From a virus, in the IMG/VR virus record IMGVR_UViG_3300032291_002962, positions 1-33,644 of that record: 33,644 nucleotides of DNA. One strand, 5' to 3'. This document shows positions 1 through 8,051 of the stretch, in pieces. The notes below the pieces were generated by a model that did not search any database, was not told the DNA's origin, and saw only the letters and a list, made by a program, of their open reading frames with translations. Position 1 is the first letter of the stretch; each line of letters opens with the position of its first letter. A program made the position numbers and the translations under genes.

Positions 1-46
1 AACGTCTCTCCACGTCTTCTTACCTACGCTTTGTAATTATATTTTG

Positions 47-118
47 AGGTCTTAAAAGGGATCGAACCTTTGTTCTATCGTTCGTAGCGATAAGTTTTTC
101 CAATTAAACTATAAGACC
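47..118 (-). tRNA. tRNA-Arg(ACG)
   Basis: Canonical cloverleaf. The acceptor stem GGTCTTA/TAAGACC pairs 7 of 7, the anticodon stem TATCG/CGATA carries the loop CTACGAA, and the T arm AAAGG/CCTTT carries the loop TTCGATC. Anticodon ACG would need A34-to-inosine editing by host TadA to read CGU/CGC/CGA. No CCA is encoded and the discriminator is U. It is the last tRNA of the array in the direction of transcription. Confidence 0.88.
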
Positions 119-124
119 AATTAA

Positions 125-254
125 AATTAAAGACAGGACTCGAACCTATACTGTGTACCCGTTGTGACGGACTAATTCTCCGGAGCAGTGCTATTTCACT
201 ACGCTTACCCTATTACTCACTTGCGAGATGCTCTACCAATTGGGCAACTTTAAT
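125..254 (-). tRNA. Interrupted tRNA-like gene (130 nt)
   Basis: The two ends are those of one tRNA. ATTAAAG at the 5' end pairs perfectly with CTTTAAT at the 3' end. The D arm (TTGCCCAATTGGTAGAGCA) is ordinary, and so is the T arm ATAGG/CCTGT with loop TTCGAGT. Between them lie about 87 nt instead of about 30, and no standard 5-bp, 7-nt anticodon arm could be found. The extra material folds into small hairpins: GTAGTG with CACTGC, CGGA with TCCG, and CCGT with ACGG. It is too short for a group I intron. It could be an intron-like insertion in the anticodon or variable region, a degenerate gene, or two fused tRNAs. The amino acid cannot be assigned. Confidence 0.5.
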
Positions 255-258
255 TTTG

Positions 259-331
259 TATCCCGAACAGGAGTCGAACCTGCAGCTTACGAGGCTTAAA
301 CTCGTTGTGTCTTCCATTCCACCACCGGGAT
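259..331 (-). tRNA. tRNA-Leu(TAA) with short variable loop
   Basis: Acceptor ATCCCGG/TCGGGAT (one G-U), anticodon stem ACGAG/CTCGT with loop TTTAAGC, and T arm GCAGG/CCTGT with loop TTCGACT. The discriminator is A and no CCA is encoded. The D arm (GGTGGAATGGAAGACAC) closely matches bacterial tRNA-Leu. The variable region is only AAGCT (5 nt), whereas bacterial Leu tRNAs carry a long variable arm, which makes this class I in shape. Leu identity follows from the anticodon and D arm. Confidence 0.78.
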
Positions 332-338
332 GTTTTTG

Positions 339-410
339 GATGTAAGGACGGTACTGCCCCGTCTTCTCAAGATTCACAGTCTTGCACTTCACTAAAAAGC
401 TTCAAACACC
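339..410 (-). tRNA. tRNA-His(GTG), degenerate
   Basis: A perfect anticodon arm CAAGA/TCTTG holds loop CTGTGAA, giving GTG (His). The D stem GCTT/AAGT and T stem GACGG/CCGTC also pair. A G at position -1 opposite C73 fits His tRNAs. The T loop is GGCAGTA, without the usual TTC, and the acceptor has two internal T-T mismatches (GTGTTTG against CTTACAT). It is either a diverged functional tRNA or a decaying copy. Confidence 0.55.
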
Positions 411-468
411 ATATTGCGATCTATAAGGTCAGATCGCCAACCAGAGCCTTCTCCCTTGGGAGATGCAG
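411..468 (-). other. Structured spacer between tRNA-like genes
   Basis: This 58-nt gap between the His-like and Met-like genes holds two clear hairpins. One is a perfect 7-bp stem, gcgatct (417-423) with agatcgc (431-437), around an 8-nt loop. The other is tctcc (450-454) with ggaga (459-463). Neither loop has a U33-type anticodon, so no tRNA is called. It may be part of a larger folded precursor or a remnant of another tRNA. Confidence 0.4.
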
Positions 469-537
469 TACCGACTACAAGTTACGCTCTTGTCTGAGAA
501 TACTTATGAGATATTCTCGATCCTAGATCAAGTCGGT
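469..537 (-). tRNA. Minimal tRNA-like cloverleaf, anticodon CAT
   Basis: A 69-nt segment folds into four perfect helices: acceptor ACCGACT/AGTCGGT (7 of 7), D stem GATC/GATC with a 3-nt loop, an 8-bp anticodon stem ending in loop CTCATAA (anticodon CAU; Met, or Ile2 if lysidine-modified), and T stem ACAAG/CTTGT with loop AGCGTAA. Discriminator A. The tiny D loop and the T loop without TTC would prevent normal D-loop/T-loop contacts, as in some organellar tRNAs. No other CAT tRNA was found in the window. Confidence 0.5.
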
Positions 538-671
538 AGTTGATAAGAACCCGTTAACTTATCGTTGTACTTTAGATTTTTTGATCAAGTGTCCTACCAC
601 TCAGGCCCCGAACGTACTATTCTACTCCTGCATTCCTTAGATGCGTTGTGAGGACGGGGAACAGGCTTTTG
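538..671 (-). other. Unassigned structured region in tRNA array
   Basis: This gap of 134 nt holds no convincing tRNA or ORF. It contains a D-arm-like string (CCTGAGTGGTAGGA), a 6-bp hairpin gataag/cttatc (542-547, 558-563), a 4-bp arm GCAT/ATGC with the 7-nt loop CTAAGGA, and distant complementary strings CCCCG/CGGGG and GTCCT/AGGAC. These look like pieces of one or more broken or interrupted tRNAs. Confidence 0.35.
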
Positions 672-757
672 CGGAAAGCAGAATATTCGAAATCCATCCA
701 TTTTACTGGACCACTCGCTTAGCAGGCGGTGACAATACCCTGATTGTTTTACTTTCC
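672..757 (-). tRNA. tRNA-Ser(GCT)
   Basis: Acceptor GGAAAGT/GCTTTCC (one wobble), D stem CAAT/ATTG, anticodon loop CTGCTAA giving GCT, a class II variable arm (TCCA/TGGA) as expected for Ser, and T loop TTCGAAT. Discriminator G, the normal Ser identity base. No encoded CCA. The anticodon stem pairs only in its inner three base pairs. Confidence 0.78.
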
Positions 758-764
758 ATTTTGT

Positions 765-835
765 AGGTACGGGGAGTTACGATCTCCCTACCTTTCGCGT
801 ATCAGGCGAATGCTCTACCGATTGAGCTACGTACC
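765..835 (-). tRNA. tRNA-Ile(GAT) with unusual T loop
   Basis: Acceptor GGTACGT/CCGTACC (6 of 7), D arm GCTC/GAGC with loop AATCGGTA, and perfect anticodon arm TTCGC/GCGAA with loop CTGATAC (GAT, Ile). The T stem GGGAG/CTCCC is perfect but its loop is ATCGTAA, without T54. The discriminator is U and no CCA is encoded. Confidence 0.8.
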
Positions 836-843
836 TATTTTAG

Positions 844-991
844 TGCTCATAGCTGGAATCGAACCAACCTTGTTAATTACTTGTACTATGCTGTTACCCT
901 TTTGCACCTAACTAGTATTTAGTGTGTAAAACCATATTACCACCATTAACCCACTTGATGCTTTTGGAGCGACCTCAACATCTATACGAGC
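844..991 (-). tRNA. Interrupted tRNA-like gene (148 nt)
   Basis: The 5' end GCTCGTA pairs over all seven positions (one G-U) with 3' TATGAGC. The T arm GTTGG/CCAGC with loop TTCGATT is canonical and the discriminator is A. The interior is about 73 nt too long. A GATG/CATC stem could be the D stem but encloses 18 nt. Inside are two 4-bp arms with 7-nt loops (GTAA/TTAC and CTAA/TTAG), neither with a clear anticodon. As with the gene at 125-254, an insertion or a two-tRNA fusion is possible. Amino acid unassigned. Confidence 0.45.
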
Positions 992-1000
992 ATTTAATTG

Positions 1001-1072
1001 CGGACTGAGGGAATTTCGAAATCCCGACCTCGATGTTAACAGCATCTTGCTCTACCTCTGAGCTACCAGTCC
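1001..1072 (-). tRNA. tRNA-Asn(GTT)
   Basis: Acceptor GGACTGG/TCAGTCC, D arm GCTC/GAGC, anticodon loop CTGTTAA (GTT, Asn) on stem GATG/CATC, T arm GGGA/TCCC with loop TTCGAAA. Discriminator G, as usual for Asn. No encoded CCA. Confidence 0.88.
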
Positions 1073-1085
1073 AAGGTTAATAAAG

Positions 1086-1158
1086 TGGATCCTGTAGGAA
1101 TCGAACCTACTCCTCTAGTTCTTCAGACTAGCGTACGCACCAGCTATACAAAAGATCC
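1086..1158 (-). tRNA. tRNA-Phe(GAA)
   Basis: Acceptor GGATCTT/AGGATCC, perfect anticodon arm CTAGT/ACTAG with loop CTGAAGA (GAA, Phe), T arm GTAGG/CCTAC with loop TTCGATT. Discriminator A, the Phe identity base. No encoded CCA. Confidence 0.9.
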
Positions 1159-1175
1159 TTGCCTTTTTTAGGATT

Positions 1176-1208
1176 TTTATAGAACCCAAGGACAGTACGA
1201 CCTATAAA
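1176..1208. repeat. Acceptor-like inverted repeat, tRNA remnant?
   Basis: A perfect 7-bp inverted repeat, tttatag (1176-1182) with ctataaa (1202-1208), encloses only 19 nt in the gap between tRNA-Phe and tRNA-Tyr. The length equals a tRNA acceptor stem, so this may be a tRNA that lost its arms. It lacks a T tract on the minus strand and so is a poor terminator. Confidence 0.4.
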
Positions 1209-1213
1209 CTATT

Positions 1214-1287
1214 TGGTGGGATAGAAGGGAATCGAACCCCCTCGCTAGGCTTTTACAGAGCCGGCCGATACCTTATCTGCCTATCCC
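1214..1287 (-). tRNA. tRNA-Tyr(GTA), short variable loop, CCA encoded
   Basis: Acceptor GGGATAG/CTATCCC (7 of 7), discriminator A followed by an encoded CCA (1214-1216). Anticodon loop CTGTAAA (GTA, Tyr) on GGCT/AGCC. T loop TTCGATT. The variable region is only AGCGA, whereas bacterial Tyr tRNAs are class II with a long arm. The T stem has two G-U pairs. Confidence 0.82.
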
Positions 1288-1293
1288 AATTTT

Positions 1294-1367
1294 GCTCATT
1301 AACGAGGTTCGAACTCTATCTTCCGGGCTTTTAAGACCCGGTGTGCTTCCGTTACACTATTAACGAA
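1294..1367 (-). tRNA. tRNA with anticodon TAA (Leu by anticodon)
   Basis: Acceptor TTCGTTA against TAATGAG (two wobbles), D stem GTG/CAC, anticodon stem CGGGT/GCCCG with loop CTTAAAA (TAA, reads UUA), T loop TTCGAAC on a weak stem (GAG/CTC only). The D arm (GTGTAACGGAAGCAC) is a class I type rather than Leu-like, and the variable loop is short. The amino-acid identity is therefore uncertain. It would be the second UUA-reading tRNA in the array. Confidence 0.65.
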
Positions 1368-1386
1368 ACTGTTACCTCAACAAGTC

Positions 1387-1439
1387 CGGCAAGACCAATC
1401 TTTCACAGTATGGCTATGAACTCATGTACCAGATTGCCG
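1387..1439. repeat. Inverted repeat in tRNA gap
   Basis: cggcaa (1387-1392) pairs with ttgccg (1434-1439), and aatct (1397-1401) with agatt (1431-1435), leaving a small bulge. The element sits in the 101-nt gap between the TAA tRNA and tRNA-Val and contains no recognisable T arm. It may be a decayed tRNA. Confidence 0.35.
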
Positions 1440-1468
1440 TCTAATACAAACTATCATTCCCATTTTTG

Positions 1469-1539
1469 TACCTCTGGATGGAATCGAACCACCACATATT
1501 GCATGTAAAACAACCGCCCTTCCATTAGACGACAGAGGC
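1469..1539 (-). tRNA. tRNA-Val(TAC)
   Basis: Acceptor GCCTCTG/CAGAGGT (terminal G-U), anticodon loop TTTACAT (TAC, Val) on a stem with two wobbles, T arm GGTGG/CCATC with loop TTCGATT. Discriminator A. No encoded CCA. Confidence 0.85.
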
Positions 1540-1651
1540 AAGCTTCAATGTCTATTCCAAAGTGTCAATTAAATTTTTCAAATTACATCTTTTGTGATCA
1601 GCAATGTTAGTAACTCTATTACAGAAGAAAATATAATAAACTCCTTTCTCG

Positions 1652-1723
1652 TACCCCCACCAAGAATCGAACTTGGATTCCCATGTTAAAAGCATGGTAC
1701 TTTAGCCATTAAGTTATAGGGGC
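1652..1723 (-). tRNA. tRNA-Lys(TTT)
   Basis: Acceptor GCCCCTA/TGGGGGT with two wobbles, D stem ACTT/AAGT, perfect anticodon arm CCATG/CATGG with loop CTTTTAA (TTT, Lys), T arm CCAAG/CTTGG with loop TTCGATT. Discriminator A, the usual Lys base. The gap before it (1540-1651) holds nothing recognisable. Confidence 0.9.
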
Positions 1724-1786
1724 AAATCTAATTCTATGTGTCGGTGCTTATTAGGCGGTGATCTATGAAGTAGTAACAGTCTTTTG

Positions 1787-1858
1787 TCGGGTAGAAAGGT
1801 GTCGAACCTTCCGCCTCTTGCTCCCAAAGCAAGCGTCGCACCTCGCGACTCCTACCCG
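1787..1858 (-). tRNA. tRNA-Pro(TGG)
   Basis: Acceptor CGGGTAG/CTACCCG (7 of 7), D arm GTCGC/GCGAC, perfect anticodon arm CTTGC/GCAAG with loop TTTGGGA (TGG, Pro), T arm GAAGG/CCTTT with loop TTCGACA. Discriminator A. Its 5' acceptor strand contains the stop codon of the HNH gene (1852-1854), so the two genes overlap by 7 nt. The gap on its 3' side (1724-1786) carries a Ser-like string (CACCGCC, TAATAAGC) but no full tRNA. Confidence 0.9.
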
Positions 1859-2256
1859 CTATGATGTGTTTTAATTTGATGGCAATTAGCACATCTCATT
1901 TTACATTTTTTTATTTCTATTTTTATGGTTTCTAATCCCATTCCCGTACCTACTAAATCTGATATATTATATTTTTTATCTGATAGATGGTCAAATTGTA
2001 ATACTCTCCAATCTTTTATTCCACAATCTATACATTGTCCATGTATTTTTTTGTATCTATTAACAAATTCTTTATTTCTAATTATTTGTTTCTTTTGATT
2101 TTCAATATGTTTAGAATTACCATGTTTTTTATAATGATTTTGGTCTCTAACTTTACAACATTCTTTACAATTAGGTTGTAAACTATCTTTTTTTAACTTA
2201 TTTTTGTGAAATTCAGTTGTTGGTTTTGAAATATCACATTTAACACATTTTTTCAT
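1852..2256 (-). CDS. HNH endonuclease, free-standing
   Basis: A 134-residue protein, probably a DNA-cutting homing-type nuclease. Two zinc-binding CxxC knuckles are visible near the N terminus (residues 4-7 and about 30-34). A third CxxC follows at about 75-78 before the core HNH signature: FDH, a spacer, then CxxNCHxxKTHH at the C terminus. The middle is a basic linker rich in Lys, Asn and His. It sits alone between tRNA-Pro and tRNA-Gln, and its stop lies inside the tRNA-Pro acceptor stem. This is typical of a small mobile nuclease inserted into a tRNA array. An ATATTTAT-type box (2263-2279) lies just upstream, so it may have its own promoter. The exact HNH subfamily is not certain. Confidence 0.85.
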   Translation of the reverse strand: MKKCVKCDISKPTTEFHKNKLKKDSLQPNCKECCKVRDQNHYKKHGNSKHIENQKKQIIRNKEFVNRYKKIHGQCIDCGIKDWRVLQFDHLSDKKYNISDLVGTGMGLETIKIEIKKCKMRCANCHQIKTHHSG

Positions 2257-2262
2257 AATATC

Positions 2263-2279
2263 TATTTATTATAAATATT
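2263..2279 (-). promoter_or_regulatory. ATATTTAT-type promoter-like box upstream of HNH gene
   Basis: The minus strand reads AATATTTATAATAAATA directly before the HNH start codon. It is a variant of the element found before the tail tube, endolysin and other genes in this window. Function inferred from recurrence only. Confidence 0.35.
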
Positions 2280-2317
2280 TGGACAAATGAAAAATATTCC
2301 AAAGCTTTTAATTATTG

Positions 2318-2389
2318 ATGGCTTATCAGGATTCGAACCCAAACTAAAACAGTCAAAGTGTTTTGTGCTAACCGTTACACTATAAGCCA
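2318..2389 (-). tRNA. tRNA-Gln(TTG)
   Basis: Acceptor TGGCTTA/TAAGCCA (7 of 7), D stem GTGT/GCAC, anticodon arm AAACA/TGTTT with loop CTTTGAC (TTG, Gln), T loop TTCGAAT on TTGGG/CCTGA. The discriminator is U rather than G. No encoded CCA. Confidence 0.87.
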
Positions 2390-2392
2390 GTA

Positions 2393-2489
2393 TGGCGGAG
2401 GATATAGGATTCGAACCCATACACCATTTTAATGATCGACGCATTTCAAGTGCGCTGCCGGTACCCAGAATCTTTCGGCTTAATCCTCC
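2393..2489 (-). tRNA. tRNA-Ser(TGA), CCA encoded, enlarged D loop
   Basis: Acceptor GGAGGAT/ATCCTCC (7 of 7), discriminator G then encoded CCA (2393-2395). Anticodon arm GCGCA/TGCG with loop CTTGAAA (TGA, Ser). A class II variable arm follows. The D stem GCCG/CGGC encloses about 15 nt, several more than normal. It is the first tRNA after the spacer that may carry the promoter of this sub-array. Confidence 0.87.
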
Positions 2490-2533
2490 TTAATTTTATC
2501 CAATATGTCAATGAACTATTTATCTTTTTAACA

Positions 2534-2557
2534 TTCGTAATATACGAAGTTTTTTTT
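2534..2557. repeat. Short palindrome next to a T run, upstream of tRNA-Ser(TGA)
   Basis: ttcgta (2534-2539) pairs with tacgaa (2543-2548), followed on the plus strand by eight T. On the minus strand the same DNA reads TTCGTATATTACGAA about 45 nt upstream of tRNA-Ser. This resembles the TTCGTATATTTA boxes in front of the genes at 3849 and 21289. It could be the promoter of the downstream tRNAs or a weak plus-strand terminator; no plus-strand gene precedes it. Confidence 0.35.
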
Positions 2558-2575
2558 ATGTATCCAAACTTTTCT

Positions 2576-2610
2576 ATAAAAAAAAACCCGAATCTTTTTT
2601 GATCCGGGTT
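2576..2610 (-). terminator. Rho-independent terminator (minus strand)
   Basis: Hairpin aacccgaatc (2585-2594) with gatccgggtt (2601-2610), one mismatch. On the minus strand it is followed by a run of about nine T (2576-2584). It lies just after the small gene at 2644-2784 and would stop transcription before the tRNA-Ser(TGA)/Gln group. Confidence 0.8.
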
Positions 2611-2643
2611 CTTGTTAGAATTTATATGTTATAATTTCTTATA

Positions 2644-2784
2644 TCATCCCAGATCTGTGTCTTGTTTCGGTTCGTTATTATACGTAAAGCCTACAATGAC
2701 ATCATTACATAACGAATCCGACCATATACTAATGGCTCTCTGCGCTGTGCTATTTGATTGATGTATGTTTTGAACTTGTATCAT
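2644..2784 (-). CDS. Small hypothetical protein (46 aa)
   Basis: A reading frame of 46 codons from ATG at 2784 to TGA at 2644. An A-rich leader (AAAAATTAAAATG) precedes it, as for most genes here, with an ATATATTTATAG box at about 2800-2815 and a strong terminator 34 nt downstream. The predicted product is soluble and polar, starts MIQVQNIHQ and ends KQDTDLG, with no membrane segment or motif that I recognise. The support is contextual (promoter-like box, leader, terminator) rather than similarity. It could be a real small early protein or a chance frame. Confidence 0.5.
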   Translation of the reverse strand: MIQVQNIHQSNSTAQRAISIWSDSLCNDVIVGFTYNNEPKQDTDLG

Positions 2785-2840
2785 TTTAATTTTTGTGGCT
2801 ATAAATATATAATAAAGATGGAAACCTTAATTTATTTTTT

Positions 2841-3190
2841 AACTACCGTTCTTTTTTGTTAATTTATCCTTTTAATAAATGTTTGTTATTTGTAATCTTT
2901 GAATCCAGTTTATCTGCTCTGGAGTCGATATAACTAATACTATCTTTATGTAAATTGTTTACTCTATCAATTTCTTGATCAATTCTACGATTTACGGATT
3001 CATCGTTTCTTGAAATCCAGTCTTCTGCATTTCGAATGCTTTCTTCATTTTGTTTTGCTAACTTTGTTGTTCTAAACGCCATTAAAACTCCAACTATGAT
3101 TAAACTCATAACTAAAGCTATAATAACACCTAAAACAAATGCTGCTATTTGTTCCATAATTTATAGTTTTTATTTCAAAGAACGGTAGTT
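2841..3190. repeat. 14-bp perfect inverted repeat flanking one gene
   Basis: aactaccgttcttt (2841-2854) and its exact reverse complement aaagaacggtagtt (3177-3190) bracket the single gene 2864-3157. The match stops sharply on both sides. It could be the ends of a small inserted cassette or a long-range mRNA stem. Neither copy matches a tRNA part. Confidence 0.75.
2864..3157 (-). CDS. Small membrane protein with coiled coil
   Basis: A 97-residue protein. Residues about 5-28 form one strong hydrophobic segment (AAFVLGVIIALVMSLIIVGV), followed by a basic stop (FRTTKLAK) and a long charged helix to the C terminus with coiled-coil-like spacing (ESIRNAEDWISRN, RRIDQEIDRVNNLH). It is probably anchored in the inner membrane with the helix in the cytoplasm. 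No enzymatic motif is visible. It stands alone in the tRNA array and is bracketed by a 14-bp inverted repeat. The leader before ATG (AAAACTATAAATTATG) is A-rich without a Shine-Dalgarno site. Function unknown; an envelope-remodelling or superinfection role is possible but unsupported. Confidence 0.75.
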   Translation of the reverse strand: MEQIAAFVLGVIIALVMSLIIVGVLMAFRTTKLAKQNEESIRNAEDWISRNDESVNRRIDQEIDRVNNLHKDSISYIDSRADKLDSKITNNKHLLKG

Positions 3191-3197
3191 TAATTAG

Positions 3198-3270
3198 TAG
3201 TCAGGGAGGACTCGAACCTTAAAGCAACCATATAGGACTCGGCAACCACGCCTCATTACGCCACCTGACT
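3198..3270 (-). tRNA. Leu-like tRNA paralogue, anticodon unclear (CCT?)
   Basis: Acceptor AGTCAGG/CCTGACT (or TAGTCAG/CTGACTA) pairs fully, and a TTCGAGT T loop is present on a weak stem (AGG/CCT). The 5' end AGTC..GTGGCG is shared with the tRNAs at 3311-3406 and 3492-3578. The best anticodon-arm reading is GCCGA with ATGGT, four pairs around GTCCTAT, which would give CCT (Arg). The arm is poor. Treat as a tRNA gene with uncertain specificity. Confidence 0.55.
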
Positions 3271-3310
3271 AACTGCATTCCTAAAAATGCAAGAGAATAT
3301 GTAACAATTG

Positions 3311-3406
3311 TAGTCGAGACAGGATTCGAACCTGTAATGTACTTTGCTAACCTCTTGTAACCGGCTACATTCTCTAGTTAAGCGTTACCAATTCCGCCAC
3401 TCGACT
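3311..3406 (-). tRNA. Leu-like tRNA paralogue with insertion (96 nt)
   Basis: Acceptor AGTCGAG/CTCGACT (7 of 7), Leu-type D arm (GTGGCGGAATTGGTAACGC), T arm ACAGG/CCTG with TTCGAAT loop, discriminator A. A stem TTAAC/GTTAG could be the anticodon stem, but it encloses 25 nt containing a small hairpin (TGTAG/TTACA) instead of a 7-nt loop, so no anticodon can be read. By its length it could pass for a class II tRNA, but no variable-arm stem fits. Confidence 0.55.
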
Positions 3407-3407
3407 T

Positions 3408-3490
3408 TAAGTTATACCTCCTACTTACACTATGTGACCTTTCATTAATGGCTGTCTTCGTTGACAGAATACTTCGGTCAATATAACTTA
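3408..3490 (-). other. tRNA-sized element with 9-bp terminal stem
   Basis: taagttata (3408-3416) and tataactta (3482-3490) form a perfect 9-bp end stem that fills the gap between two tRNA-like genes almost exactly. Inside are CTGTC/GACAG around a 6-nt loop, and GACC/GGTC. No T arm or anticodon arm is visible. It may be a degenerate tRNA or another small structured RNA. Confidence 0.45.
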
Positions 3491-3491
3491 G

Positions 3492-3578
3492 TAGTCAGGA
3501 CAGGATTCGAACCTGTAATCTCTCAGCTTTATTAGGAAAATTCCACAATGAGTGCGTTTACCATTCCGCCACATGACT
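3492..3578 (-). tRNA. Leu-like tRNA paralogue with insertion (87 nt)
   Basis: Acceptor AGTCATG/CCTGACT (6 of 7), Leu-type D arm (GTGGCGGAATGGTAAACGC), T arm ACAGG/CCTGT with TTCGAAT loop, discriminator A. CTCA/TGAG is the likely anticodon stem, but it encloses about 23 nt with a GGAA/TTCC hairpin. The variable loop would then be 5 nt. The anticodon cannot be read with confidence. Confidence 0.55.
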
Positions 3579-3669
3579 ATTTTTGCTCTTATTCTAATAC
3601 CCCTTTATTTCGAGCTAACCTGCTTATCTTTAAATACGAGTTTTTCAAGGGTACAGGTTATTTTGTAAA

Positions 3670-3849
3670 TTACTTTACAGTTTTAGTTGTATCAACTTCT
3701 GATACTTCTAATGAAGCTGAATCAACTGATATTGAATCAACTTGTACTGATGTTGAATCTACTGTTGATACTGAAGCTGGTGTTTCTACGTTTTTACAGC
3801 TTGCTACTACTAAAGCCATTACGGCTAATACTAAAATTACTTTTTTCAT
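3670..3849 (-). CDS. Small lipoprotein with VDS repeats (59 aa)
   Basis: An ATG at 3849 opens a 59-codon frame ending at TAA (3670). The N terminus is a textbook lipoprotein signal: MKK, a hydrophobic stretch (VILVLAVMALVV), then ASC followed by K, so Cys18 would be lipidated. The mature part is acidic, Ser/Thr-rich and repetitive, with VDS or VES-like units (STVDSTS, VQVDSIS, VDSAS, LEVSEVDTT). It resembles small repetitive lipoproteins of flavobacterial genomes. The box TTCGTATATTTAAG and an A-rich leader precede it. It may be outer-membrane or periplasm facing, with a superinfection-exclusion or envelope role possible. A frame on the opposite strand is a shadow. Confidence 0.8.
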   Translation of the reverse strand: MKKVILVLAVMALVVASCKNVETPASVSTVDSTSVQVDSISVDSASLEVSEVDTTKTVK

Positions 3850-3897
3850 GTTTTTGTTTTTATTAATTTCTATACTTAAATATACGAACTTTTTTTC

Positions 3898-4167
3898 TTA
3901 ATCCCAAACTTCTTCGTAAGTTTTTTCAAAAATATCTGGTTTACATGGATAAAATTCTCCATTTACTCCTTTGATGATGAAGTCACCTACATTAGCTGTC
4001 ATATCACCTTCAAGAGTCTCTATTGTGATTTTACCGTTAGGATTTCCTTCTTCTGGTGAAGTTTTTGTTCTGATTGGCGTTTTCATAAATTTAGCTATTT
4101 CACCTGAATTTGTTCCGTCCCATTGAATTGCTTCAATTACAACTGGCTTCTTTCTGTACATTCCCAT
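3898..4167 (-). CDS. Phage protein with MYRKKPVxIEAIQW motif
   Basis: About 90 residues beginning MGMYRKKPVVIEAIQW, a widespread N-terminal motif in small phage proteins of unknown role. The C-terminal half (GDFIIKGVNGEFYPCKPDIF) matches the usual end of that family, which in many members reads GDyIikG.nGE.ypckpdiF. I place the start at 4167, two bases past the upstream gene's TAA (4169-4171); ATG 4161 is equally possible. A longer frame to 4242 would overlap the neighbour by 74 nt and lacks the family's start. Last gene of the 7336-3898 operon. Probably a small soluble protein, function unknown. Confidence 0.8.
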   Translation of the reverse strand: MGMYRKKPVVIEAIQWDGTNSGEIAKFMKTPIRTKTSPEEGNPNGKITIETLEGDMTANVGDFIIKGVNGEFYPCKPDIFEKTYEEVWD

Positions 4168-4168
4168 A

Positions 4169-4582
4169 TTAGAACGTAACTGAGAAGATTTCTTTAATGA
4201 TTGTAGTACTTGGATCAAAGTCTTTATCCAATTGCTTAGCAACAGATAATTCTAATGATGCTCCGTTTTTAATCTCTACCCATAATTCTTTTACGAATTT
4301 TGAAGATACTACTTGATTTTTGTCGTTTCTCTCTACTGTAAATACAGCTACTTTTGTTTGTCTGTTCATATTGTTTGAATTTATTATTGCTTGTGATAGT
4401 AAAGTGTAGTCACTTCCGTTACTGTAAGTTAAACCGCTTCCTCCTGTAAGAGGCATTGTCCAATTTCCGTCATGGTATGTATTAACTGTGCCATTACAAT
4501 TTGTTGTAAGGGTTGTTGATGCATTACTTAGGCTAGTTCCTACTGCTTGACTATATCCTAGTAAATTTGTTTTATCGTTCAT
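4169..4582 (-). CDS. Hypothetical protein (137 aa)
   Basis: No family recognised. The N-terminal half is rich in Ser, Thr, Asn and Gly (about residues 8-65), with short motifs such as NCNGTVNTYHDGNW. The C-terminal half is more mixed, with alternating hydrophobic residues (KVAVFTVERND, FVKELWVEIKNG) that suggest beta strands, followed by a helix. There is no signal peptide or membrane segment. It lies 4 nt after queC and directly before the MYRKKP-type gene, so it is probably co-transcribed with the DNA-modification genes. The composition recalls a small structural or decoration protein, but that is only a guess. Confidence 0.7.
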   Translation of the reverse strand: MNDKTNLLGYSQAVGTSLSNASTTLTTNCNGTVNTYHDGNWTMPLTGGSGLTYSNGSDYTLLSQAIINSNNMNRQTKVAVFTVERNDKNQVVSSKFVKELWVEIKNGASLELSVAKQLDKDFDPSTTIIKEIFSVTF

Positions 4583-4586
4583 ACTT

Positions 4587-5465
4587 TTATTTGTTATGAT
4601 TATCTAATACTTTTGTTACTTCTGCTACTACATGTTCCCATGTTACTGGTCCTGTTTCGTCTGCATAAGGTGCTGGATCTTTTCTTCCTAATTTGATAAA
4701 TGCTTCTACTCTTTCAACTGATGAAGCTGATTTGTAGTCTGAGTACCATTTACCTGGTGTTGTATCTCCCAATGTTTCATAAGGGATAAAGATTGGCTTA
4801 TAAGAAGTATTAGTTCTTGAATATACTTCATCAAAATCCAGTCCTAATTCGTTACACAGCACTTCTCCGTCTTGTAAAATTGTAAATTTATTACCTTCCA
4901 TATATGGAGTAAAATAACCTACTCTTTCAGCATCCCAATTACCTACTCTAAAAGCATGATCATCAGCATCTCGAAAGGTTTCAGTGCAGTCCGGATAAAT
5001 TTGATGATCGCCACTGTGTACACCTAAAGCAATATCACAAGTCTCTCCTGTACGATTTGCAACTGATAAAGCTACTGCTTGAGTAATAGAAGCAAATATT
5101 TTGTTTCTGTTAGGAACAACAGTTGCTTTCATATTATCTTCTGCATAGTGACCTTCTGGTACATCTTCACCTCCTGTTACCAGGGCCGAATCTAATAGAT
5201 CAACTAATCCGTCTAGTTTGATTTGACGATAAGTTACTCCAGGGAATGAATCCCCATGAATTTGTATACTACTTTTAACTTCACCATTAATATAATCTAC
5301 TAATGATTGAGCTCTCTCTAGCTCTACTCTATGTTTTTGACCATAGTCAAAGCTAATAGCCGTAACTGTGTCATACTCTTTTAGACATCTAAGTAATAAA
5401 GTGCTGCTATCCATGCCCCCACTCAGTGAAAGGACTACATGTTTCTTATTTTTGTTCTCCTTCAT
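4587..5465 (-). CDS. queC: QueC-like 7-cyano-7-deazaguanine synthase
   Basis: QueC converts 7-carboxy-7-deazaguanine to preQ0 using ATP and ammonia. The PP-loop SGGMDSS follows the first strand, then FDYGQKHRVE (family DYGQRH), VPNRNKIF (family VPxRN) and GVHSGDHQIYPDC (family G...YPDC). At about 290 residues it is longer than typical QueC (about 220-230), with extra sequence near GGEDVPEGHYAED and at the C terminus. The zinc-binding cysteine cluster expected before the final RREAF-like helix is absent: the region reads SDYKSASSVERVEAF. Start 5465 gives MKENKNKKHVV; ATG 5489 is also possible. It overlaps the upstream gene and shares an operon with a DpdA-like gene, which supports a DNA-modification role. 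Confidence 0.88.
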   Translation of the reverse strand: MKENKNKKHVVLSLSGGMDSSTLLLRCLKEYDTVTAISFDYGQKHRVELERAQSLVDYINGEVKSSIQIHGDSFPGVTYRQIKLDGLVDLLDSALVTGGEDVPEGHYAEDNMKATVVPNRNKIFASITQAVALSVANRTGETCDIALGVHSGDHQIYPDCTETFRDADDHAFRVGNWDAERVGYFTPYMEGNKFTILQDGEVLCNELGLDFDEVYSRTNTSYKPIFIPYETLGDTTPGKWYSDYKSASSVERVEAFIKLGRKDPAPYADETGPVTWEHVVAEVTKVLDNHNK

Positions 5466-5769
5466 ATACTTTTTTTCCAAAATATTCATCTAAAAATTCT
5501 CTACGATACAAATGTACTGTCCCTTTGTAAGCAGGATTTTCAATATGTCTTTCGTGGATAGTTTCTTTAAGCTTTACAGCAACATTATTTACTTCTGCTC
5601 CTAATTGTTTCCCTGCTGCTCTGCCTAAATAGTCATAAAGCGACATCATGTAAGGTTTTTGTCCCATAACTGGTTCTTTAATTAAATTGATAATACCTAG
5701 CACATTTTCTTTTGTAAAAATTGAACTAGGAGATGATTTTACTAATAGTGATACTAATTTTTTGTCCAT
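5446..5769 (-). CDS. Hypothetical protein (107 aa) in 7-deazaguanine operon
   Basis: Not recognised. The protein is soluble and mostly helical in appearance, with a basic N terminus (MDKKLVSLLVKSSPSS), a central segment MSLYDYLGRAAGKQLGAEVN and a charged C terminus (YRREFLDEYFGKKV). No signal peptide or cysteine motif. Its 3' end overlaps queC, and its start overlaps the small gene 5754-5906, so translation is probably coupled through the operon. It may be a partner of the modification enzymes, but nothing in the sequence proves it. Confidence 0.7.
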   Translation of the reverse strand: MDKKLVSLLVKSSPSSIFTKENVLGIINLIKEPVMGQKPYMMSLYDYLGRAAGKQLGAEVNNVAVKLKETIHERHIENPAYKGTVHLYRREFLDEYFGKKVYEGEQK

Positions 5770-5906
5770 AACTTTAATTTATTTTTTATTTCAAATTTAA
5801 TATATGAAAAATATCCTGCTACTCCAACAAAAAGAGCAGAGAGGTTGAAAATGTGGGGATGATTTTCCCCACAAGTTCCACAAATATGATTTATAACTTC
5901 GGTCAT
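5754..5906 (-). CDS. Small CxxC/His membrane protein (50 aa)
   Basis: A 50-codon frame from ATG 5906 to TAG 5754. The N terminus holds a compact metal-binding-like motif, HICGTCGENHPH (residues 7-18). A hydrophobic segment follows (LSALFVGVAGYFSYI), then a basic tail. It looks like a one-span membrane protein with a small zinc-ribbon-like head. The start overlaps the stop of the gene before it as ATGA, and the end overlaps the next gene by 16 nt. Such packing supports it as real coding sequence. Function unknown. Confidence 0.65.
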   Translation of the reverse strand: MTEVINHICGTCGENHPHIFNLSALFVGVAGYFSYIKFEIKNKLKLWTKN

Positions 5907-6043
5907 TTTTTTAATTTTTCTAATTTCCAAGGATGATAAATTATTTCAAAGGTTTCAGGATCAAATTGAGCCATTCTTTGATAGCTATACCCAAACCAAC
6001 TTAGTGGTCGGTTTATTAATTGTATTAAATAAAATTTTATCAT
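5903..6043 (-). CDS. Small hypothetical protein (46 aa)
   Basis: A 46-codon frame from ATG 6043 to TGA 5903, linked by ATGA overlaps to dpdA upstream (stop 6040-6042) and to the next small gene downstream. The product is basic and aromatic-rich: MIKFYLIQLINRPLSWFGY, then YQRMAQFDPETFEIIYHPWKL. The hydrophobic N terminus might bind membrane but is short for a clear span. No family recognised. The precise start/stop overlaps on both sides argue that it is translated. Confidence 0.6.
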   Translation of the reverse strand: MIKFYLIQLINRPLSWFGYSYQRMAQFDPETFEIIYHPWKLEKLKK

Positions 6044-6828
6044 TGGTTACAAAATTCTTTAAATTTATTTACATTGAATATAATATCTTCTAATTTAGTA
6101 TCCAAATCCATTTCCATAAATTCTTCAATCTTTTCTTTAGGTTTTTCTAATAAACCTGTTTCAGTATATCTTATACCTAAAGCACCACAAATAATTGGAT
6201 TTGAAGTATCAACTGAATTTATAACAGTAGGTATTGCATCTCTATAGAATGTAAATTCTTGTGGAGTAGAAGCTCCTAATAAGTGAATATAATGATGATC
6301 CTTAATTATATTTTGAGATAATAAAAATTGTATAAGTAATACTCTCCCAACAGATTGATTAGCTAAAACATTTTCTGATCCTCCTAATTCTTGATAAACA
6401 ACAGAGGAATGATTAAATGCAAAATGAGTATAACCTAAATCAACACATTGTTGGTATAATAAATGTATATCACTCACGGTTTTTCCTTGCAATACTACCA
6501 TTAATTTGGTACGCATCGGCATCTTATATTGTAACCAATGTTTAGCGTTTTTAGCCGTGATTGTTGAATCATTCCACTCGTCAGGAACAATGAAGATATC
6601 TGGTTTAATTAAATCAATTTTTTCAAGTAAATCTTGAGTAGTGTGAGTTACTCCTTCAAAAAGACCATTATCACAAATTATAAATCTGTCTCTTTCTCGG
6701 GCATCTAAAAAATATTGTCTGTAATCAGAGTATTTATCCAACAAGTGAGGTAAACAATACTCATAATCATTCCAATCTGAGCTGTATTCTAATAAACTGA
6801 TTGGTAATTCATGTGAAATTTTAATCAT
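6040..6828 (-). CDS. dpdA: DpdA-like tRNA-guanine-transglycosylase family protein
   Basis: A 262-residue protein of the phage DpdA type. These TGT-fold enzymes exchange guanine in DNA for a 7-deazaguanine base. Supporting segments are FIICDNGLFEG near residue 50, PDIFIVPDEWNDS near 75, KLMVVLQGKTVSD, a strand with YTHFAFNHSS, and LLGASTPQEF, which together follow the barrel order of the family. The classical tRNA-TGT zinc cysteines are not visible, consistent with DNA-directed members. Its start overlaps the previous gene by 8 nt and its stop overlaps the next as ATGA. With QueC downstream, the likely product is preQ0 or a derivative in phage DNA. QueD and QueE are not in this window. Confidence 0.8.
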   Translation of the reverse strand: MIKISHELPISLLEYSSDWNDYEYCLPHLLDKYSDYRQYFLDARERDRFIICDNGLFEGVTHTTQDLLEKIDLIKPDIFIVPDEWNDSTITAKNAKHWLQYKMPMRTKLMVVLQGKTVSDIHLLYQQCVDLGYTHFAFNHSSVVYQELGGSENVLANQSVGRVLLIQFLLSQNIIKDHHYIHLLGASTPQEFTFYRDAIPTVINSVDTSNPIICGALGIRYTETGLLEKPKEKIEEFMEMDLDTKLEDIIFNVNKFKEFCNQ

Positions 6829-7336
6829 AACGTGATTGTAAATGTTTTAATGATTTTGGTAAATAAAATTTATTGTAAGGGTATTTTTGTTGTAAGTGAA
6901 TGTACAACTCTTCTAGTGTACCATCAAATTCTCCCATTAGAGTTTTTACTTCATCTTTAGTAATTTTAAAATTTTTAGATAATTCAATAGCAATAGATTC
7001 TAGTCTATTATCTTCTTCTTTGTAGTGATCTTCTAATAAACGTTTTCTACGTGAACGAAGTAATGAAGTTTCCTCTACATATCGTCCCATATCATCTAAA
7101 CCAAATTTATTGTAAATTTTATTCATTTCATGCTCACACCACATAGCTTGATAGTTGTAGTGAGAGTAATCAAAATCACCATTTTTAATCCGGTCTAATA
7201 TAAAGGATTGTTTAGATAATGCAGGTTTTGGATCGTCATACATTCTCCACCACCTGTAAGGATTGTAATTTAGTTTGCGTAACTTTTTAAATTTTTTCTC
7301 TAATTGTTCTTGTGAGCAAGAAGGATTGTATATCAT
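6821..7336 (-). CDS. Hypothetical protein (171 aa), first gene of modification operon
   Basis: Not recognised. It is a charged, helical, soluble protein. Residues about 10-35 are very basic and aromatic (KKFKKLRKLNYNPYRWWRMY), the middle has a segment MWCEHEMNKIYNKFGLDD, and the C terminus ends with LPKSLKHLQSRYD. The basic, Trp-rich N terminus could bind nucleic acid. It starts just after a terminator hairpin (7367-7383) and a TTCGTACATTTAGG box. It therefore likely opens the operon running through dpdA and queC, and overlaps dpdA by 8 nt. Confidence 0.7.
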   Translation of the reverse strand: MIYNPSCSQEQLEKKFKKLRKLNYNPYRWWRMYDDPKPALSKQSFILDRIKNGDFDYSHYNYQAMWCEHEMNKIYNKFGLDDMGRYVEETSLLRSRRKRLLEDHYKEEDNRLESIAIELSKNFKITKDEVKTLMGEFDGTLEELYIHLQQKYPYNKFYLPKSLKHLQSRYD

Positions 7337-7366
7337 AACTTTTATTTTAATACCTAAATGTACGAA

Positions 7367-7383
7367 GGCTCCCTTAGGGAGCC
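7367..7383 (-). terminator. Probable terminator after spanin-like genes
   Basis: A perfect 7-bp hairpin ggctccc/gggagcc with a 3-nt loop, 4 nt after the stop of the gene at 7388. The trailing T tract on the minus strand is weak (TTCGTACATTT), so termination may be partial. The same GGCTCCC/GGGAGCC stem recurs at 20731-20747. Confidence 0.6.
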
Positions 7384-7387
7384 AAAT

Positions 7388-7789
7388 TTATTTTATAAGT
7401 AAGTACGAAGAAGTAAGTATACCTACAAATGTTCCTGCCTTCCAAAGGAATGACTTAACCTTTTGCCCTTTCAATTCCTTTTGTAGATCATCTGTTAGAT
7501 GTTCATACTGACCTATTTGTAATTCTTGTTGGTGGATGATGTATTGGTTGTTTTCATCTTTAGTATTTAGTAGATCAATGATAATATCTTTTTGTTCATC
7601 TCTTTCTTCTAACTTATTTACCACACTTGATAGTAAGTCTACCTCTTGCTTACATCCATCATAACGAACTAAATCCTTTGCTACTTGTCTTGCAATATTA
7701 GTTGGGATGCAAACCTTGGTTGTATCTGTTTGTGAAAAACAGTTCAAGCTCAGCATTAGAAAACTTATTAACAGTATTAACTTTTTCAT
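7388..7789 (-). CDS. Secreted protein with C-terminal membrane segment, spanin-like
   Basis: A 133-residue protein with a clear signal peptide (MKKLILLISFLMLSLNCFSQ) whose end is typical of Bacteroidota. A helical, charged middle (about residues 45-105, KLEERDEQKDIIIDLLN and similar) and a hydrophobic C terminus (TFVGILTSSYLLI) follow. LNC before FSQ could be a poor lipobox. It overlaps the upstream gene by about 90 nt in another frame and follows the holin and endolysin. The nested arrangement recalls Rz/Rz1-type spanin pairs that fuse inner and outer membranes. Two further Cys (about residues 27 and 46) might form a disulfide. The spanin assignment is inferred from context. Confidence 0.6.
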   Translation of the reverse strand: MKKLILLISFLMLSLNCFSQTDTTKVCIPTNIARQVAKDLVRYDGCKQEVDLLSSVVNKLEERDEQKDIIIDLLNTKDENNQYIIHQQELQIGQYEHLTDDLQKELKGQKVKSFLWKAGTFVGILTSSYLLIK

Positions 7790-8051
7790 CTGTTTGTTTT
7801 TTTACGATTGTTATTGTATTATTTATTTCGTGAATTTCTTTTGTAATAGAAACTACATTTTGTTTTACTGAATCGATCTTAGTATCGATTTGTTTATTAA
7901 CTACTTGGGCTGAGTCTACTTTGGTTTGAATAGCTTCTATTCTATCTTTGTAACCTTTTACATCAGTTTTAATTCCTCTTGTAGTGAATAAGTTATAACA
8001 AAGTAGTAATGCTATTACAACTAGTAATATGTTTTGTTTATTCTGTAACAT
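7698..8051 (-). CDS. Inner-membrane coiled-coil protein, i-spanin-like
   Basis: A 117-residue protein with an N-terminal membrane anchor (NILLVVIALLLCYNLFTT, about residues 7-24) and then a long predicted periplasmic coiled coil with repeated Ile/Val spacing and Thr/Lys (TKIDSVKQNVVSITKEIHEI, VKKQTDEKVNTVNKF). This matches the general design of inner-membrane spanins. Its start overlaps the holin's end by 14 nt, and its last 92 nt overlap the signal-peptide part of the next gene. Position in a holin-endolysin-spanin cassette supports a role in the last step of lysis. No sequence family was recognised. Confidence 0.62.
   Translation of the reverse strand: MLQNKQNILLVVIALLLCYNLFTTRGIKTDVKGYKDRIEAIQTKVDSAQVVNKQIDTKIDSVKQNVVSITKEIHEINNTITIVKKQTDEKVNTVNKFSNAELELFFTNRYNQGLHPN

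Follow-up and report, generated by a model that had tools for sequence, protein, structure and literature searches.

Two enlarged tRNA-like genes in a phage tRNA array, probably encoding tRNA-derived RNAs with an expanded or exchanged anticodon-side half

The presence of tRNA genes in phages is usually put down either to codon supply or to resistance against host nucleases that attack tRNAs. GOLLD and ROOL, which are structured non-coding RNAs, are often encoded near them. The GOLLD and ROOL phage RNAs have been the subject of a cryo-EM study (PMC12286853), and phage tRNAs with altered anticodon loops have been found to escape host anticodon nucleases (van den Berg 2023, PMC10264068). Another report (PMC11551756) states that every bacterial tRNA known so far is canonical. 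Two genes of the array described here, A and B, have the 7-bp acceptor stem and the 5-bp T arm with a T-T-C-R-A loop that are among the criteria for a tRNA; their interiors are oversized and lack a 5-bp anticodon stem with a 7-nt loop containing U33.

The window, that is, the whole stretch of DNA analyzed (33,644 nt), is a 33.6-kb piece of the genome of an uncultivated Bacteroidota myophage, which among named phages comes closest to Flavobacterium phage immuto when the NrdA proteins are compared (63% identity). The array is truncated at the contig end, and its downstream side is therefore missing from the window. The array and the two loci are as follows:

1–3600, minus strand: tRNA array including A, B and gene Z (11 ARAGORN tRNAs and further Rfam matches)
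126–254, minus strand: locus A, a tRNA-like gene between tRNA-Leu(UAA) and tRNA-Arg(ACG), recognized by its pairing and T arm and by alleles in relatives
248–254/126–132, 230–245, 133–149 and about 150–229: acceptor, D arm, T arm and interior of A
844–992, minus strand: locus B, a predicted 147-nt tRNA-like structured RNA between tRNA-Asn and tRNA-Ile, based on homologues, covariation and a covariance model
985–991/845–851, 957–982, 852–868 and 844: acceptor, D-position hairpin, T arm and discriminator of B
945–950 (GTTAAT)/872–877 (ATTAAC): closing helix of the enlarged arm of B
1852–2256: HNH endonuclease gene inside the array, assigned with PHROGs

Relatives were recruited through the window gene at 4587–5489, a homologue of immuto queC. 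This gave 80 loci, many of which share the array in conserved order, and further relatives were added through pattern scans; since the scans used exact patterns, more diverged relatives were missed. Neither A nor B had a match in 50,697 named-phage records, and both were left uncalled by ARAGORN and Rfam, each of which called the adjoining tRNAs. At E ≤ 1, Rfam gave no match to a group I or other intron, to tmRNA, or to GOLLD or ROOL in window positions 1–8000. Membership of A or B in a known RNA family was rejected, as Rfam gave nothing for either locus. We also rejected the idea that A or B fills in a missing isotype, because arrays without B have the same set of surrounding tRNAs. Antisense pairing between the interiors of A and B and the rest of the window was not above chance (P = 0.9 and 0.53).

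An earlier note, made from the sequence of this DNA, had described two loci with fully paired acceptor ends and canonical T arms that are held apart by 55–73 nt of extra interior. Both observations were confirmed, on the minus strand. In A, the 5' ATTAAAG (254–248) pairs with the 3' CTTTAAT (132–126) at 7/7 positions and the T arm is ATAGG-TTCGAGT-CCTGT (149–133); in B, GCTCGTA (991–985) pairs with TATGAGC (851–845), likewise at 7/7, and the T arm is GTTGG-TTCGATT-CCAGC (868–852). The lengths of 129 nt (A) and 147 nt (B) exceed the size of a tRNA by about 55 and 73 nt, respectively. The statement that no standard anticodon arm is readable was correct for both loci. On the D side, a D arm with 3/4 pairs can be read in A (GCCC-AATTGGTA-GAGC), and B has U8 and A9 as well as an enlarged D-position hairpin. 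Well-placed discriminators had been reported for both loci, and this held for B (A844); in A, the acceptor pairing continues to approximately 10 bp (AAAATTAAAG with CTTTAATTTT), which makes a free discriminator and CCA end doubtful. The pairing of the ends had further been considered unlikely to arise by chance. When the T arm was taken as given and the 224-nt upstream stretch was shuffled, the 7/7 match itself was weak (P = 0.11 for A and 0.07 for B), and thus the case for A and B rests on their conservation in relatives.

Viral contigs with a homologue of B, long in every case, number about a dozen, and the homologue nearly always directly precedes tRNA-Ile; in the arrays of several relatives this slot contains no B. 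The topology is that of a cloverleaf, in which the acceptor and the T arm are accompanied by the enlarged D-position hairpin and by an arm of approximately 65–75 nt enclosed by the GTTAAT/ATTAAC helix. In ten sequences, 93% of the cells of a 35-pair cloverleaf-like model were paired, and sliding the partners cut the pairing to 27–41%. Changes on both sides were seen in 6 pairs versus 1.6 in shuffles (0/500), a comparison of ten non-independent relatives with shuffles that ignore relatedness. The compensatory changes represent few events and fall in the acceptor, T-arm and enlarged-arm helices; the frame variants GCTCGTA/TATGAGC, GTTCGTA/TACGGGC and GTCCGTA/TACGGGC co-vary as pairs. A covariance model built for B gave 89–175 bits for the B copies (144 bits and E = 5e-33 for the one in the window), whereas ordinary tRNAs matched it weakly, at up to 28 bits and with the middle deleted. 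The middle occurs in several types, and L109 combines an L012-type D hairpin with a window-type middle. Judged from these alignments, locus B would encode a structured, tRNA-like RNA that has been maintained among the relatives.

The frame of A was found in the same slot, after tRNA-Leu(UAA), in five other contigs (L086, L093, L087, L108 and L115), the first two of which have an interior in common. The alleles of A were compared alongside those of another gene of the array:

3493–3578, minus strand: gene Z, a second tRNA-Leu-like frame (AGTCA..TGACT) with an allele-specific interior (Rfam tRNA, 48 bits; ten alleles)

The interiors of the distinct A alleles measure 39, 41, 41, 78 and 150 nt, and the acceptor and T arm are still paired in all five despite these very different sizes. 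The identity of the D- and T-side frame was 0.91, and that of the interior 0.77 compared with 0.75 for shuffled interiors. In the ten alleles of Z, whose anticodon region is oversized by 23 nt according to the Rfam tRNA model, the corresponding values were 0.86 for the frame and 0.67 for the interior (0.66 when shuffled). Except for near-identical strains and one 94% pair (L008/L042), the A and Z interiors are unique among the loci examined. The alignment with the arrays of related phages, which the earlier note had proposed as a check, showed that the genes recur at corresponding positions while their middles differ. As far as can be read from its alleles, locus A has a tRNA-like frame around a middle that is replaced freely. 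The fusion of two tRNA halves, another suggestion of the note, was not seen in A or B; the sole case was in a relative, L126, where the 5' part of A is fused to the 3' part of Z, a join that either exists in nature or arose during assembly.

A and B could be decaying tRNA copies or recombination debris, the ends of which have been kept only through recombination between neighbouring repeats. In favor of this, the A and Z interiors are unrelated across alleles, the interior of A folds no better than shuffled sequence (z = -0.2), a chimera is known, and the arrays are strongly mosaic, with whole genes exchanged between slots. Decay would, however, be expected to strike the frame as well, and the acceptor and T arm of A are paired in five distinct alleles. 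For B, decay is contradicted by a single structure that has been kept, with compensatory changes, throughout about a dozen contigs. We regard decay as unlikely, less so for A, whose frame is kept and whose interior is free. It is also conceivable that the elements are processing punctuation, that is, RNase P and RNase Z signals that aid the cutting of the precursor while the middles drift freely. An acceptor stem and a T arm suffice for RNase P, and the conserved part of A comprises just the acceptor, D and T sides, with the A and Z middles varying freely. Since the middle of B is itself conserved in structure, and B is missing from its slot in several arrays, such a role appears very unlikely.

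The possibility exists that A and B are functional tRNAs with small anticodon-loop introns, which would be cut by an endonuclease and joined by a phage RNA ligase, A being tRNA-Val(CAC). The intron mode of ARAGORN drew A as Val(CAC), placing a 55-nt intron at position 33/34 and giving the loop CUCACAA, and the 201-nt L087 allele was also drawn as CAC, with a 121-nt intron. However, shuffled interiors yielded intron calls too (33% for A and 93% for L087), the anticodon stem of L087 is mismatched at 2/5 pairs, and the 90–92-nt A alleles are incompatible with the intron drawing. With shuffled interiors, CAC appeared as the anticodon approximately 1% of the time, and the CAC shared by A and L087 is therefore a mild coincidence (about 1–2%) rather than proof. 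No intron-free allele was identified, and the unrelated interiors of the A alleles leave no shared exons. Nine copies of B gave no intron call by ARAGORN when introns of 0–250 nt were allowed, and the arm of B has a covarying helix of its own. The intron reading put forward in the earlier note is thus not supported for B, while A can be drawn accordingly, as can some of its shuffled versions.

In several relatives (L116, positions 4559–7455; L117, L118, L119, L120, L121 and L124), genes for a metallophosphoesterase, an AAA_33 kinase and an RNA ligase lie directly downstream of the array on the same strand. The kinase is a P-loop kinase with weak similarity to polynucleotide kinase, the ligase resembles Naegleria RNA ligase, and in several relatives the cassette lies 1.1–5.9 kb past the last called tRNA. 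The ligase is present in 11 array contigs (about eight lineages). It is absent from the 167-kb contig L008, though an array is present there. Most relatives that showed no array also lack it, with the exception of L047. No RtcB was found; a T4 Rnl1-type ligase (PF09511) gave no match, and as the PF09511 control matched nowhere, this does not establish its absence. We read these genes as an array-linked cassette for heal-and-seal RNA repair. Its presence would make the cutting and joining of tRNAs possible near the array and would leave room for splicing of A and B. On the other hand, the ligase also accompanies arrays in which neither A nor B was found (L031 and L017), which makes repair a likelier role for it than the splicing of A and B, and no splicing endonuclease was identified. 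Taken together, it is quite improbable that A and B are spliced tRNAs.

Other unusual genes were read in the window array:

339–409, minus strand: tRNA-His(GTG) with the unusual T loop GGCAGTA (Rfam tRNA, 28.5 bits, below the cut-off; His(gtg) called at this slot in relatives)
470–537, minus strand: reduced tRNA-Met(CAT)-like gene (D arm GATC-TAG-GATC, T loop AGCGTAA; read from the sequence)
673–757, minus strand: tRNA-Ser(GCT)-like gene with a short D hairpin (acceptor GGAAAGT/GCTTTCC over 85 nt, loop CTGCTAA)

Both the Met and the His gene have mitochondria-like D/T loops and are kept in relatives; the T stem of the former is ACAAG/CTTGT in some and CCAGG/CCTGG in others. The corresponding slots of L086 are canonical, that of the reduced Met gene being occupied by a canonical Met(CAT) tRNA. 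A conserved element of approximately 120 nt (CCTCACAACGYRTYTAAGGAAYRCAGGAG) lies between Ser(GCT) and Met in the window (538–672) and in relatives (18 stretches). Cassettes of about 50–65 nt with the constant ends GACTGTTACTAATTCATAG .. CATAGAATTAGATTT and variable centres were present in the window (1724–1785) and in L005, L007, L012, L020, L025, L033 and L042, sometimes two in one array. The Leu-Thr gap of L008, L025, L031, L033 and L104 contains a tRNA-like gene (ATTAGAGTTAGCTTATAG..) whose T loop is degenerate; most genomes share one anticodon arm in this gene, whereas in L033, L093 and L105 it has been replaced. Circularly permuted tRNA-like genes, composed of the 3' half, a short acceptor-closing loop and the 5' half with the termini at the anticodon loop, fill inter-tRNA space in L005 (11700–11782), L008 (11966–12043), L017 (12050–12125), L025 (11818–11892), L033 (12246–12320), L085 (near 3139), L087 (near 9413) and L108 (near 9892). 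Their acceptor pairing alone is only modestly significant (P = 0.01–0.3 each). When the gaps between called tRNAs were grouped into 102 clusters, a terminal helix of at least 7 Watson-Crick pairs was present in 31, compared with 3.4 expected, these counts being upper bounds because some gaps are tRNAs missed by ARAGORN or short ORFs. The mean folding z was -1.25 for the inter-tRNA elements, -1.58 for tRNAs and -0.08 for coding sequence.

We lean towards the explanation that A and B are tRNA-derived RNAs in which the RNase P/Z processing frame has been kept and the anticodon-side half expanded or swapped. Both appear to retain the parts needed by tRNA-processing enzymes, namely the acceptor stem and T arm and, in B, U8/A9. 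The array would be transcribed as a single precursor, from which RNase P and RNase Z would excise A and B like tRNAs, and the products would persist as non-decoding, tRNA-shaped RNAs of about 130–150 nt. The middle of B is a conserved, modular and structured arm, and the A and Z middles are replaced wholesale between relatives, probably via recombination in shared D- and T-arm tracts. The selective reason may, speculatively, be conflict with host tRNA-targeting defences, against which decoys or cleavage-resistant tRNA mimics could act; this suggestion is based on the repair cassette and on parallels in the literature (PMC10264068, PMC13096335). A broader proposal, a set of tRNA-framed RNAs in which a constant, processable frame is combined with an anticodon-side domain that is rapidly replaced, and which would serve as anti-defence decoys or cleavage-resistant mimics beside the repair cassette and the ligation-needing permuted tRNA-like genes of relatives, seems to us rather unlikely.

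If genes retain a tRNA frame and exchange the entire anticodon half, phage arrays would contain non-coding RNAs of a new kind. Such genes escape standard tRNA finders, as A and B did, and would allow a direct test of the arms-race idea. They would also extend non-canonical tRNA-like folds beyond mitochondria.

GOLLD and ROOL are much larger than A and B and are not known to have a tRNA frame. A and B share with tmRNA a tRNA-like acceptor/T-arm domain and a long interior, but they measure about 130–150 nt and tmRNA about 350 nt; weak Rfam tmRNA matches were seen elsewhere in L087 and L108 (E of about 0.001–0.002). Like intron-containing tRNA genes, whether with group I introns or with archaeal or eukaryal anticodon-loop introns, they have tRNA ends split by extra sequence; unlike these, they have interiors of 39–150 nt with no Rfam intron match and alleles with no shared exon structure, and B is not recognised as intron-bearing. 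The armless or reduced mitochondrial tRNAs are resembled by the Met(CAT) and His(GTG) genes of the window, with their reduced D/T-loop contacts, whereas A and B are enlarged. The phage tRNAs that escape anticodon nucleases (PMC10264068) likewise belong to phage tRNA arrays and vary on the anticodon side, but these carry loop mutations and are otherwise ordinary, whereas in A and B whole anticodon-side domains are enlarged or replaced.
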